Shown here: one piece after another, positions 31,693-35,512 of the stretch | Numbering within the stretch: position 1 is the first letter of the stretch | Layout of the letters: each line of letters starts with the position of its first letter | NCBI GenBank assembly: GCA_905234125.1 | Contig: CAJOGQ010000012.1 | Location: forward strand, 12,366 to 49,715 | DNA from: an uncultured Bacteroidaceae bacterium | GTDB taxonomy: Bacteria > Bacteroidota > Bacteroidia > Bacteroidales > Bacteroidaceae | Reading direction: 5' to 3' | DNA: 37,350 bases | Notes under the pieces: generated by a model | The model's database searches: none | What the model saw: the letters and a program-made list of their open reading frames with translations, nothing else | Told to the model about the DNA's origin: nothing | Program-made: the position numbers and the translations under genes

Positions 31693-31697
31693 CCTTA

Positions 31698-31753
31698 ACT
31701 ATCAACTGCCAACTATTAACTATCAACTGTCAATTATCAATTGTCAACTAACA
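31698..31753 (+). repeat. Heptamer tandem repeat, unit ACTATCA (8 units)
   Basis: Eight consecutive 7-mers in exact phase: ACTATCA, ACTGCCA, ACTATTA, ACTATCA, ACTGTCA, ATTATCA, ATTGTCA, ACTAACA. The array starts 6 bases after the ssb stop and its last base is the A of the kdsA ATG, so it makes up almost the entire gap. The ACTATCA-ACTGTCA pair recurs before kdsD. Confidence 0.8.
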
Positions 31754-32508: not shown

Positions 32509-32533
32509 CAAACCTACTGATGCTGTGTAAGTA

Positions 32534-32568
32534 ACTGTCAATTCTCAACTATCAACTGTCAACTATGA
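32534..32568 (+). repeat. Heptamer tandem repeat, unit ACTRTCA (5 units)
   Basis: ACTGTCA, ATTCTCA, ACTATCA, ACTGTCA, ACTATGA in exact phase. The kdsD start codon lies within the last unit, at 32565. Confidence 0.75.
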
Positions 32569-33512
32569 TGAAATCCAAGATATATGCAGAGCGATGCTTG
32601 CGCGACGAGGCGCAGGCTCTGATTGACCTCATTCCCCAGTTGGACACGAACTTCGAGCAGGTGGTTGACCTCATCCACCGATGCACGGGGCATGTGGTCG
32701 TGACGGGAGTGGGCAAGTCGGGTCATGTTGGCGCCAAGATTGCGGCCACGTTGGCATCGACGGGCACGCCGGCCATCTATCTGAATGCTCTAGATGCCCT
32801 GCACGGCGACCTCGGCATGATTATGCAGGGCGACATCCTTCTCATGATCAGCAATTCGGGCAACACCGACGAGCTTTTGCGCATCATCGCCTCGCTCGAA
32901 GACCGTCACATCCCTATCGTCTCCATGACCGGCGAGTCCGATTCCCTCTTGGCTCAGCACTCCGACTACCATATCCTCTGCCGGGTGGAGCGTGAGGCCT
33001 GTCCGCTCAATCTTGCTCCCACGTCCAGCACCACTTGTGCCATGGCCATGGGCGACGCGCTGGCTTGTGCCCTGATGGAGGTGAGGAAGTTCCGCGCCAA
33101 GGATTTCGCCCTCTTCCATCCTGGTGGGACACTGGGTCGGAAATTGCTCGTCAGGGTGAAGGACGTGATGTACACGGAGAACTTCCCCATTGTTCCACCC
33201 ACCATGCTCCTGTCCGACGCGCTCATGATCATCAGCGGAGGCAAGCTCGGTCTGGGTGTCGTGATGGAAGGTGAGAAGATTCTTGGCATCATCACCGACG
33301 GTGACATCCGTCGAGCCGTCGAAGGAGCCCGTGAGAATTTCATCAACATTCCCGTGAGTGATGTGATGACCACGACCCCGAAGACCATTTCGCCCGAAGC
33401 CAAGCTGACGACCATCCAGCAGATGTTCCGCAACCATAAGATTCACTCTCTGCTCGTCACCGACCACGGACGTCTCGTCGGCATTGTCGACTATTTCGCC
33501 ATCATGAATTAA
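32565..33512 (+). CDS. kdsD: Arabinose-5-phosphate isomerase
   Basis: Interconverts ribulose-5-phosphate and arabinose-5-phosphate, the first step towards Kdo. The 315-residue protein has an N-terminal SIS domain (about 35-180) with GVGKSGHVGAKIAATLASTGTPA (K51), REACPLNLAPTSST and DFALFHPGGTLG, where the Glu and His fit the known catalytic residues. Two CBS domains follow (about 195-315; LGIITDGDIRRAVE and VTDHGRLVGIVDYFAIM). Two ATGs in a row (32565, 32568) are possible starts. The stop is 3 bases before the 22-bp palindrome array. Confidence 0.95.
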   Translation: MMKSKIYAERCLRDEAQALIDLIPQLDTNFEQVVDLIHRCTGHVVVTGVGKSGHVGAKIAATLASTGTPAIYLNALDALHGDLGMIMQGDILLMISNSGNTDELLRIIASLEDRHIPIVSMTGESDSLLAQHSDYHILCRVEREACPLNLAPTSSTTCAMAMGDALACALMEVRKFRAKDFALFHPGGTLGRKLLVRVKDVMYTENFPIVPPTMLLSDALMIISGGKLGLGVVMEGEKILGIITDGDIRRAVEGARENFINIPVSDVMTTTPKTISPEAKLTTIQQMFRNHKIHSLLVTDHGRLVGIVDYFAIMN

Positions 33513-33515
33513 CCT

Positions 33516-33811
33516 CTTGCGGATGGTTGAAAACCGTCATCCGCATGGTCAGAAAAAATAATGCGCATTATCAGCTCCGATAATGCGCATTATTTGTGTC
33601 GTTAATGCGCATTATTGACTCCGTTAATGCGCATTATCAATTTCAGCCATCCGCATGACCGATTTTGTTCATACGTATGATTGACTTCATTCATACGTAT
33701 CATTGAGTCAAATCATACGTATCATCGGAGCAAACCATACGTATGATTTAAAACAAGCATGCGCATCACCGTTTCTGATGATGCGCATGAATGATTGGAA
33801 TGATGCTGATG
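33516..33811. repeat. 14-unit array of 10-bp palindromes at exact 22-bp period
   Basis: Ten-base cores start at 33516 and every 22 bases to 33802. In order: CTTGCGGATG, CATCCGCATG, AATGCGCATT four times, CATCCGCATG, CATACGTATG, CATACGTATC, CATACGTATC, CATACGTATG, CATGCGCATC, GATGCGCATG, GATGCTGATG. Twelve of 14 contain ATNCGNAT. The 12-bp spacers vary but mostly begin with A and end in T. The array leaves 3 bases free after the kdsD stop and 3 before the ABC-F stop, so it fills the whole convergent gap of 302 bases. The period of 22 is not a codon multiple, so it is not coding. Confidence 0.93.
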
Positions 33812-33814
33812 GGC

Positions 33815-35512
33815 TTATTCATCCATCAGCTTTCGATAGCGGATTCGCTTGGGTTCTTCCAGTCCGAGACGCTTGGCCTTGTTGGCTTCGTAGTCGGTGT
33901 AGGAACCCTCGAAATAGAAGACTTGGCCGTCGCCTTCGAAGGCAAGGATGTGGGTGCAGATGCGGTCGAGGAACCAGCGGTCGTGGCTGATGATGACGGC
34001 GCATCCGGCAAAAGCTTCAAGTCCTTCCTCAAGAGCTCGGAGCGTGTTCACGTCGATGTCGTTGGTCGGCTCGTCGAGCAAGAGGACATTTCCTTCCTGC
34101 TTCAGCGCCAGCGCCAGTTGCAAGCGGTTCCGTTCACCACCTGAGAGCACGCCGCACTTCTTTTCCTGGTCGGCTCCACTGAAGTTGAACTTGCTCAGAT
34201 AAGCCCGCACATTCACGTCCCGACCACCCATGCGGATGGTCTCGTTGCCGCCGCTCACTGTCTGGTAAACCGACTTTTCGGGGTCGATGTCCTTGTGCTG
34301 CTGATCGACGTAAGCGAGCTTCACGGTCTCGCCCACCTCGAACGAGCCGGCATCGGCCTTGTCCAGCCCCATGATGAGACGGAAGAGCGTGGTCTTTCCA
34401 ACGCCGTTGGGACCGATGACGCCCACGATGCCGTTAGGTGGCAGGTTGAAGTTGAGGTCGGTGTAGAGCACTTTCTCACCGAAGGATTTCGCCACGTGCT
34501 GGGCTTCGATGACCTTGTTGCCGAGTCGCGGACCGTTGGGAATGAAGATTTCCAGCTTCTCTTCCTTCTCCTTCTGCTCCTCATTGAGCATCTTGTCGTA
34601 GGAGTTCAGACGAGCCTTTCCCTTTGCCTGACGGGCTTTCGGAGCCATGCGAACCCACTCCAGCTCACGCTCCAAGGTCTTCCGTCGCTTCGATGCAGTC
34701 TTCTCCTCCTGCTCCATGCGCTTGCTCTTTTGCTCCAGCCATGAGGAGTAATTTCCCTTCCATGGGATGCCTTCGCCTCGGTCGAGCTCGAGAATCCACT
34801 CGGACACGTCGTCGAGGAAATATCGGTCGTGGGTGACGGCGATGACCGTGCCCTCATACTGCTGAAGATGCTGTTCGAGCCAGTCGATTGACTCAGCATC
34901 GAGATGGTTGGTCGGCTCGTCGAGCAGGAGCACGTCGGGCTTCTGAAGGAGCAATCGGCACAGAGCGACACGGCGACGCTCACCGCCCGAGAGATTCTTC
35001 ACGCTCCAGTCGCCTGGCGGACAGCGTAGGGCATCCATGGCACGCTCCAGCTTCGAGTCCATGTTCCAAGCGTCGGTGGAATCGATGATGTCCTGGAGCT
35101 CGGCCTGCCGCGTCATGAGCTGTTCCATCTTGTCTGGGTCCTCGTAATATTCGGGCAAACCGAATTTCACGTTGATGTCATCGTACTCGGCCAGTGCGTC
35201 ATACACATGCTGAACGCCTTCCATCACGTTCTCCTTCACCGTCTTGTCCTCATTCAAGGGAGGCTCCTGCGGCAGGTAGCCCACTGTGTAGCCCGGACTC
35301 CACACCACTTGTCCCTGGAACTGCTGATCCAGTCCGGCGATGATCTTCATCAGCGTCGATTTACCCGCTCCATTCAGACCGATGATGCCGATCTTCGCTC
35401 CGTAGAAGAACGAGAGATAGATGTTCTTGAGCACTTGTTTCTGATTCTGCTGGATGGTCTTGCTCACTCCGACCATCGAGAATATCACTTTTTTGTCGTC
35501 AACTGTTGGCAT
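33815..35512 (-). CDS. ettA: ABC-F ATPase, EttA-type translation factor
   Basis: A 565-residue soluble protein with two ABC domains and no membrane segments, typical of ribosome-binding ABC-F factors. Domain 1: Walker A GLNGAGKST (about 45-53), LSGGERRRVAL and LLLDEPTNHLDAESI. A charged linker follows (about 250-310, KSKRMEQEEKTASKRRKTLERELEW). Domain 2: GPNGVGKTT, LSGGERNRLQLALAL and LLLDEPTNDIDVNTLRALEE. The tail KRLGLEEPKRIRYRKL matches EttA, the translational throttle that gates the first peptide bond according to ATP level. It starts 10 bases after the sppA stop and is probably co-transcribed. Confidence 0.93.
   Translation of the reverse strand: MPTVDDKKVIFSMVGVSKTIQQNQKQVLKNIYLSFFYGAKIGIIGLNGAGKSTLMKIIAGLDQQFQGQVVWSPGYTVGYLPQEPPLNEDKTVKENVMEGVQHVYDALAEYDDINVKFGLPEYYEDPDKMEQLMTRQAELQDIIDSTDAWNMDSKLERAMDALRCPPGDWSVKNLSGGERRRVALCRLLLQKPDVLLLDEPTNHLDAESIDWLEQHLQQYEGTVIAVTHDRYFLDDVSEWILELDRGEGIPWKGNYSSWLEQKSKRMEQEEKTASKRRKTLERELEWVRMAPKARQAKGKARLNSYDKMLNEEQKEKEEKLEIFIPNGPRLGNKVIEAQHVAKSFGEKVLYTDLNFNLPPNGIVGVIGPNGVGKTTLFRLIMGLDKADAGSFEVGETVKLAYVDQQHKDIDPEKSVYQTVSGGNETIRMGGRDVNVRAYLSKFNFSGADQEKKCGVLSGGERNRLQLALALKQEGNVLLLDEPTNDIDVNTLRALEEGLEAFAGCAVIISHDRWFLDRICTHILAFEGDGQVFYFEGSYTDYEANKAKRLGLEEPKRIRYRKLMDE

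Follow-up and report, generated by a model that had tools for sequence, protein, structure and literature searches.

A 22-bp Palindrome Ladder in a Bacteroidaceae Intergenic Gap: Candidate Sites for an HU-HIG Protein

Introduction

Between two convergent genes of an uncultured Bacteroidaceae bacterium lies a ladder of short palindromes that leaves almost no other DNA in the gap, and the locus raises the question of what such a ladder is for and what, if anything, binds to it. The window analysed here is a stretch of 37,350 nucleotides (contig CAJOGQ010000012.1, positions 12,366 to 49,715). A sequence-only reading of this DNA had proposed cooperative binding of a dimeric protein, at a centromere, operator, nucleoid or domain-boundary site. 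A cooperative site for a nucleoid-type dimer stays the best reading, with the HU-HIG clade of the HU/IHF superfamily now added as the candidate family, while the strict helical phasing and the tie to the two flanking genes have to be given up.

The Array in the Window

The two convergent stop codons leave a gap of 302 bases (33513–33814 by the ORF coordinates and by direct reading), and the array fills it, just as had been claimed (Table 1). Read from the letters, the units stand at 33516 + 22n, with n = 0–13. The exact core ATNCGNAT is present in 12 of the 14 (n = 1–12, 33538–33789), and all 11 steps from core to core are 22 bp. The two end units are degenerate, with CTTGCGGATG at n = 0 and GATGCTGATG at n = 13, and self-complementary letters number 6 of 12 in the former and 4 of 12 in the latter. 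Perfect 12-letter palindromes are found in five of the twelve exact-core units (n = 2–5 and 7). The earlier description of fourteen palindromic cores on an exact 22-bp lattice was therefore right about the lattice, but its count of palindromes was slightly too high. The window contains 20 copies of ATNCGNAT against 9.9 ± 2.9 expected (maximum 16 in 100 shuffles), and it is out of the question that twelve of them fell into register by chance.

The units sort into three blocks. Block C also appears as a terminator-like hairpin on the minus strand in a terminator scan, and its type matches the sole other array found in the source genome, which has two units (C54:11316-11363, loci L004/L087). The spacers are not random either: over 71 cores, from the window array and related arrays, the consensus of the full 22-bp unit is palindromic, about TCRATNATRCGYATNATYGA. 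Adjacent units are more similar than in shuffled order (3101 vs 2951 matches, 0/1000 shuffles) in 59 arrays including that of the window; five matching loci (L109, L110, L112, L131 and L133) were left out of this test and of the covariation, neighbour-pairing and T-run tests described below. Other short repeats are seen in these regions as well, namely 7-bp tandem repeats of AACTATC near gene ends (window 31695–31750 and 32533–32566) and TCAATTATCAATTG-like repeats, which are common in the loci of relatives.

Table 1. Features of the window array and its two neighbours (window coordinates).
Feature	Position	Strand	Basis
Whole array: 14 units (22-bp lattice), of which 12 have an exact ATNCGNAT core	33516..33811	.	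Direct reading; array-model (R1) matches on both strands
Degenerate left end unit, n = 0	33516..33525	.	Direct reading
Block A, n = 1–6: CATCCGCATG, four AATGCGCATT, CATCCGCATG	33538..33657	.	Direct reading
Block B, n = 7–10: four CATACGTATS units	33670..33745	.	Direct reading
Block C, n = 11–12: CATGCGCATC/GATGCGCATG pair, GATGCGCATS-like	33758..33789	.	Direct reading
Degenerate right end unit, n = 13, without CG core	33802..33811	.	Direct reading
Units n = 3/n = 2 as a hairpin with six T after it, a possible ABC-F terminator	33553..33593	-	Direct reading; absent from the terminator-scan list; whole-strand fold z -10.4
Convergent neighbour, kdsD-like	32565..33512	+	ORF; name by eye
Convergent neighbour, ABC-F-like ATPase	33815..35512	-	ORF; name by eye

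Distribution of Related Arrays

The idea that the array has a conserved place between kdsD and ABC-F did not hold up. Of 20 other loci from the genus, just 2 (G035 and G041) were seen to have kdsD within 1.5 kb of the ABC-F gene, and the array model found no array in either genome among the candidates scored. The array is thus no conserved element of the kdsD/ABC-F gap, and like arrays occupy unrelated places.

Such arrays are patchily spread. Like sequences were found by BLAST in 11 of 45 genomes of the genus, and a three-unit sequence model found arrays in at least 12 of these 45 (E ≤ 1e-4), in at least 16 of 399 genomes of the family, covering 5 of 30 genera (E ≤ 1e-6), and in at least 4 of 393 genomes of the order, the source genome included. 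The counts of array genomes are lower bounds because the model scored only part of the candidates, 13 to 150 per genome. A pattern scan of one genome per species over 84,980 species gave 58 stretches, 56 of them with Bacteroidales titles and many derived from the rumen; the other two come from Actinocorallia and Oxalobacter. Among viral contigs 2 matched, and DNA searches of plasmids and phages with the window array gave no matches.

The array loci are mostly unrelated to each other. Among 64 arrays, 26 lie in convergent gaps, 25 between codirectional genes, 5 in divergent gaps and 8 at contig edges. The commonest step between successive ATNCGNAT cores is 22 bp (278 cases), followed by 44 bp (14 cases), and related arrays also run at 21 or 23 bp. 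The exact same-face phasing that had been linked to cooperative binding is thus not required, because these 21- and 23-bp ladders occur and because unit duplication also yields 22-bp steps. A third core word of 11 bp, CATGATACATG/CATGTATCATG, ends or composes arrays at a 23-bp pitch (L087, L123, L179, L198, L205, L211, L227, L272 and L276).

Two observations on the placement of arrays may be added here. Seven of them (L092, L094, L096, L105, L116, L119 and L126) are no more than a few hundred bases away from the end of a contig, and arrays may therefore be points at which assemblies break. In several species a ladder is retained between genes that appear by eye to be trpG and trpD (L132, L215, L217 and L219, with L184 on one side), apparently within an operon.

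Conservation and Copying of the Units

In 13 aligned pairs of arrays, differences amount to 36/731 in the cores, 120/608 in the spacers and 680/3624 in the flanks, so the cores differ four times less than the spacers, with a mild bias towards conserved cores because one array of every pair had its units identified through this same motif. Most of these pairs are at matching loci and not all are independent (L132 and L217 enter three each, L215 and L219 two each), and one pair, L203/L209, consists of two loci of one genome. The sequence-only reading had set a dedicated binding site against a mobile repeat scattered over many unrelated loci. Only half of the latter outcome is seen: the array is dispersed, but its cores are conserved unlike its spacers.

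Gap runs in the aligned pairs are exactly 22 bases long in 5 of 7 cases, three of the five against one locus. Arrays are more alike within a genome than between genomes (16.26 vs 14.78 of 22, 0/2000 label shuffles, L200 and L221 left out), a result compatible with copying as well as with a shared binder, and two loci of genome G006 share long stretches. New copies are probably produced when whole units duplicate and when sequence is copied from one genomic place to another. When flanks were compared across loci, the sequence that they had in common came mainly from matching loci, from HU-A genes (described below), or from further units and an end word CATGTATCATG. No gene recurs within 1.5 kb of arrays apart from the matching loci and the HU-like gene, and a shared cargo is dismissed on this ground.

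HU-A, a Candidate Partner in Bacteria and on Viral Contigs

The flanks of unrelated arrays share one gene start, MISLIKKK..., which belongs to a gene named here HU-A. The HU-A protein passes the HU-HIG profile PF18291 with 56.4 bits (cut-off 26.2), as do the viral and out-of-family partner proteins; TIGR01201 (HU_rel) is not reached, two HU-A proteins scoring 66.5 and 58.9 bits against 68.6. The AlphaFold model is only fair (pLDDT 71), and its nearest folds are HU/IHF, the best PDB hit having an E of 0.09.

Nine of 97 arrays precede HU-A, two of the nine being on near-identical contigs of one genome, and one more precedes a 19-codon remnant. In ten HU-A copies beside arrays, the start codon is 24–71 bp off in nine and 328 bp off in one. 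Starting from the protein instead, HU-A was found in 3 of 45 genomes of the genus and 6 of 399 of the family, and a ladder at 22 or 23 bp stands upstream of all 7 distinct bacterial HU-A genes that reach the start codon (G004, G021, G022, G064, G188, G220 and G406), among which G004 is the source of the query, the G406 gene has two stops, and the pairing with an array was not known beforehand in G022, G188 and G406. The HU-A match in G066 is partial and no ladder was seen there. The ladders of G022 and G188 have a 23-bp pitch and an 11-bp core, CATGATACATG or the complement of it, a word also found at the end of several other arrays. Of the 6 HU-A genomes in the family sample, five also belong to its 16 array genomes (P 3e-7; with G004 left out, 6e-6; neither value corrects for kinship). 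Among 150 listed of the 217 HU-HIG genes found in 19 array genomes, five lie within 3 kb of an array found by the R1 model, and all five are HU-A.

The pairing extends to viral contigs. A ladder of 2–4 units stands upstream of 6 of 6 viral-contig HU-A genes, which are 52–63% identical, two of these contigs having been first met through the array and L282/L283 being near-identical. Two viral contigs were checked for phage genes: in the first, tail genes surround the HU-A/ladder pair, and in the second, of 50 kb, the pair lies near a KilAC/Bro-N antirepressor gene, while a second, similar ladder is located between portal and protease. HU-A was not found in named phages (with the L282 query only) or in plasmids (with the L088 query), and a search of the viral contigs with a distant HU-HIG query found none.

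As a point against the HU-HIG reading, HU-A was not found in 10 of the 12 array-bearing genomes of the genus, including the source genome (G000, 84% complete) and G037 (98%), nor in 11 of 16 array genomes from the family, including G372 (95%), in which ten arrays were seen. Among the ten genomes of the genus, G006 retains a 19-codon remnant next to one of its arrays. The source genome has 12 HU-HIG matches, and the copy number runs from 3 to 20 per genome in the 19 array-bearing genomes. The window ladder may be a target of another resident HU-HIG protein, of an absent or invading one, or a relic.

Ladders Upstream of Other HU-HIG Genes

The association is not confined to HU-A. From the 150 listed genes, HU-A excluded, 60 were picked by genome and list order, not by arrays. 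Enough upstream DNA was present for 58 of them, and tandem repeats of 21–23 bp were found in 35 of these 58, compared with 18 of 162 controls, whereas other periods were not raised (10 of 58 vs 26 of 162). The controls are upstream regions of other genes at array loci, unscreened for distant HU-HIG genes, and their 18 include three divergent gaps seen from both sides, which leaves 15 distinct control arrays. The repeats lie at a median of 91 bp from the start codon, and the remaining 23 of the 58 HU-HIG upstream regions have no 21–23-bp repeat. The units of the HU-HIG repeats are often palindromic (mean 0.63 vs 0.52 shuffled), significantly so when taken singly in 11 of 35, and in 3 of 18 controls.

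The unit sequences vary between HU-HIG clades, and similar ladders accompany similar proteins: a gene and its best protein neighbour have a ladder in common in 16 of 21 cases. Such sharing by orthologous genes could be plain descent of the gene together with its upstream DNA. Three ladder types also recur at non-HU places in the same genome (L313/L136, L328/L101 and L339/L144, a search limited to the loci examined, from which L346 was dropped as a simple repeat), and the window array follows just this pattern. Across genomes, the only other recurrence away from HU genes was that of L327 at L090; L327 is the ATGCGCAT ladder of an HU-HIG gene of G201 other than HU-A. One ladder of another type counts against the HU-HIG reading, namely three copies of the 22-bp near-perfect palindrome TTGCATATACATGTATGTGCAA that lie in G201 between two divergent genes, neither of them HU-like (L129, 12653–12718).

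Farther afield, an array-first search outside the family gave 4 array loci in 3 genomes, 2 of which precede distant HU-HIG genes, by about 43 and about 120 bp; the one out-of-family HU-HIG protein compared is 28% identical to viral HU-A. The other two, L291 and L294, are ATACGTAT ladders of G495, a genome from a distant family of the Bacteroidales, and the 3 kb viewed there contains no HU-HIG gene. For more distant HU-HIG genes in plasmid-collection and phage records (8 of 13 matches), a ladder was seen in only 2 of 8, both from Phocaeicola massiliensis, and the rule of an upstream ladder is therefore not universal. The array family is statistically linked to HU-HIG genes, both in bacteria and on viral contigs.

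Terminators, Selfish Repeats and Other Regulators

The alternative that survives best, although we consider it unlikely, takes the arrays as two-way intrinsic terminators, in which adjacent palindromes pair as RNA hairpins with T-runs at the ends; their place in convergent gaps would then reflect the need to end the transcripts from either side. The orientation of the arrays suits it (26 convergent vs 5 divergent), and so do the fold of the window RNA (z -9.5 and -10.4) and the one terminator-like site that the scan gave in the window, although good folding is expected of any palindrome ladder. Beside ftsZ, an array in 3 of 30 genomes replaces, by eye, what looks like the ordinary ftsZ terminator of most others, and arrays of two or three units are often built as A-run, array and T-run with complementary outer units, above all in G019 and G021. 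A TTTT run comes after 47 of 193 cores at array ends, compared with 40 of 606 inner cores and 13% of 2200 control spots in intergenic DNA, and is thus clearly commoner at the ends than inside; AAAA, however, is found at 34 of 193 array ends and is not clearly rarer than TTTT (P 0.13), and a looser T-run test gave 48 of 117 vs 38% in controls. The terminator pattern, present at many short arrays, is weak overall. In 156 neighbour pairs that are not self-complementary, direct copies fit better in 78 and complements in 30, with 48 ties, and neighbour pairing is not significant (56 and 673 of 1000 shuffles). Covariation within the unit does not favour per-unit hairpins: its total is not significant, the ±5 pair alone exceeds both kinds of shuffle (137/262, 0/1000), and ±2 and ±6 do so only against within-genome shuffling. 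Positions count against terminators as well: some ladders separate codirectional tail and head genes of phages, others apparently separate trpG from trpD (by eye), and others again directly precede HU-HIG genes, an odd place for a terminator. Binding and terminator roles could coexist. Rfam gave no matches in the window at the gathering score.

As a separate observation on RNA, a stretch downstream of gyrB in the ftsZ-gyrB gap (ATTTCATTCAATTCTTACATATATTCTCGTGCCGACCA...GAAGTGATTCTAACCGAGTCGGCACATC, L237–L266) is by eye near-identical in most genomes of the genus, above its surroundings, and may be a conserved RNA or terminator; the names ftsZ and gyrB were given by eye.

A selfish or mutational repeat, that is, a minisatellite or MITE-like element spread by a transposase and useless to the cell, would agree with the patchy spread over unrelated loci, the likeness within genomes, the long stretches shared by the two G006 loci and the whole-unit indels. 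We find it improbable in view of the conserved cores, the HU-HIG association and the lack of any recurring gene near arrays besides the one already named; among the 12 array genomes of the genus, moreover, no more than 3 have a Y1/RAYT transposase above the cut-off. With no Y1 match in G000 either, a REP/RAYT mover is unsupported.

Least of all do we favour operator ladders for some other regulator, such as a phage-type repressor, with the HU-HIG gene as target and not as binder: a ladder upstream of HU-HIG genes fits this and an antirepressor gene lies near HU-A on one viral contig, but no other gene recurs beside arrays, and since the unit varies by HU-HIG clade, a separate regulator would be needed for each.

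Comparison with Known Systems

That the array is not a CRISPR, as the sequence-only reading had stated, agrees with its 22-bp units, its related 12-bp spacers and the absence of recurring neighbours other than the HU-like gene and matching loci. REP/BIME elements are likewise dispersed extragenic palindromes, often at the 3' ends of genes, but they are not known to have a fixed lattice like the 22-bp one here, and a Y1/RAYT gene passes the cut-off only in the 3 of 12 array genomes given above. Partition centromeres and iteron arrays are regularly spaced tandem sites for a DNA-binding protein and resemble the ladders in this respect; the arrays differ in lying several to a chromosome at unrelated loci, and no par or rep gene was noticed beside them. 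The proteins proposed as partners clearly have the HU-HIG domain, and their nearest folds are HU/IHF, but HU is known for a weak sequence preference and IHF for single sites, in contrast to the clade-private palindrome ladders seen here. Our literature search, which most subscription papers lay outside, found no description of an element of the window type, of HU-HIG targets or of clade-private palindrome ladders. Similar in form is BrickBuilt of P. gingivalis, a MITE minisatellite that is also from the Bacteroidales, intergenic and dispersed with a short tandem unit; according to the accessible part of the source, its 23-nt unit AGAYCATARTATCCTCTCRTRTG is unlike the window unit, it has a leader, a tail and IS-like inverted ends, and no HU link is described there (PMC4596501).

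Proposed Explanation and Significance

Since arrays stand before HU genes far above chance, the one in the window probably serves a protein of this kind as a docking strip. At a rough probability of 0.57, we read the window array as a scattered ladder of candidate sites to which an HU-HIG protein would bind, with the same kind of units as those before HU-A. HU-family proteins are dimers, which suits palindromic sites. Each palindrome of about 22 bp would take one HU-HIG dimer and neighbouring dimers would sit side by side, perhaps cooperatively. The ladder upstream of an HU-HIG gene would let the protein regulate its own gene, while ladders with the same unit scattered between genes may be seeds of local nucleoprotein blocks. 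The unit sequence would be private to the clade. Of this picture, the genomes show the lattice, the dispersal, the conserved cores and the statistical link to HU-HIG genes; the rest, including the choice of paralog at the window ladder, is inferred.

A broader and more doubtful proposal is an address system of the Bacteroidales, in which many HU-HIG paralogs each have a private ladder of 21–23-bp pitch before their own gene together with scattered landing sites. Phages carry matching HU-HIG/ladder pairs, and orphan ladders such as that of the window may therefore be landing or decoy sites for an incoming phage HU-HIG protein. Burroughs and others reportedly proposed in 2017 that the HU-HIG expansion in Bacteroidetes concerns the recognition of mobile elements, and we know of no DNA target for the HU-HIG family.

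Even if the arrays turn out to be terminators, they would be unusual ones, modular and duplicating. If the clade-private ladders are targets, however, gel shift and footprinting could directly test the specificity of a large protein family, HU-like proteins would have addresses in the sequence, and the scattered ladders could serve as a map of nucleoid landing sites.
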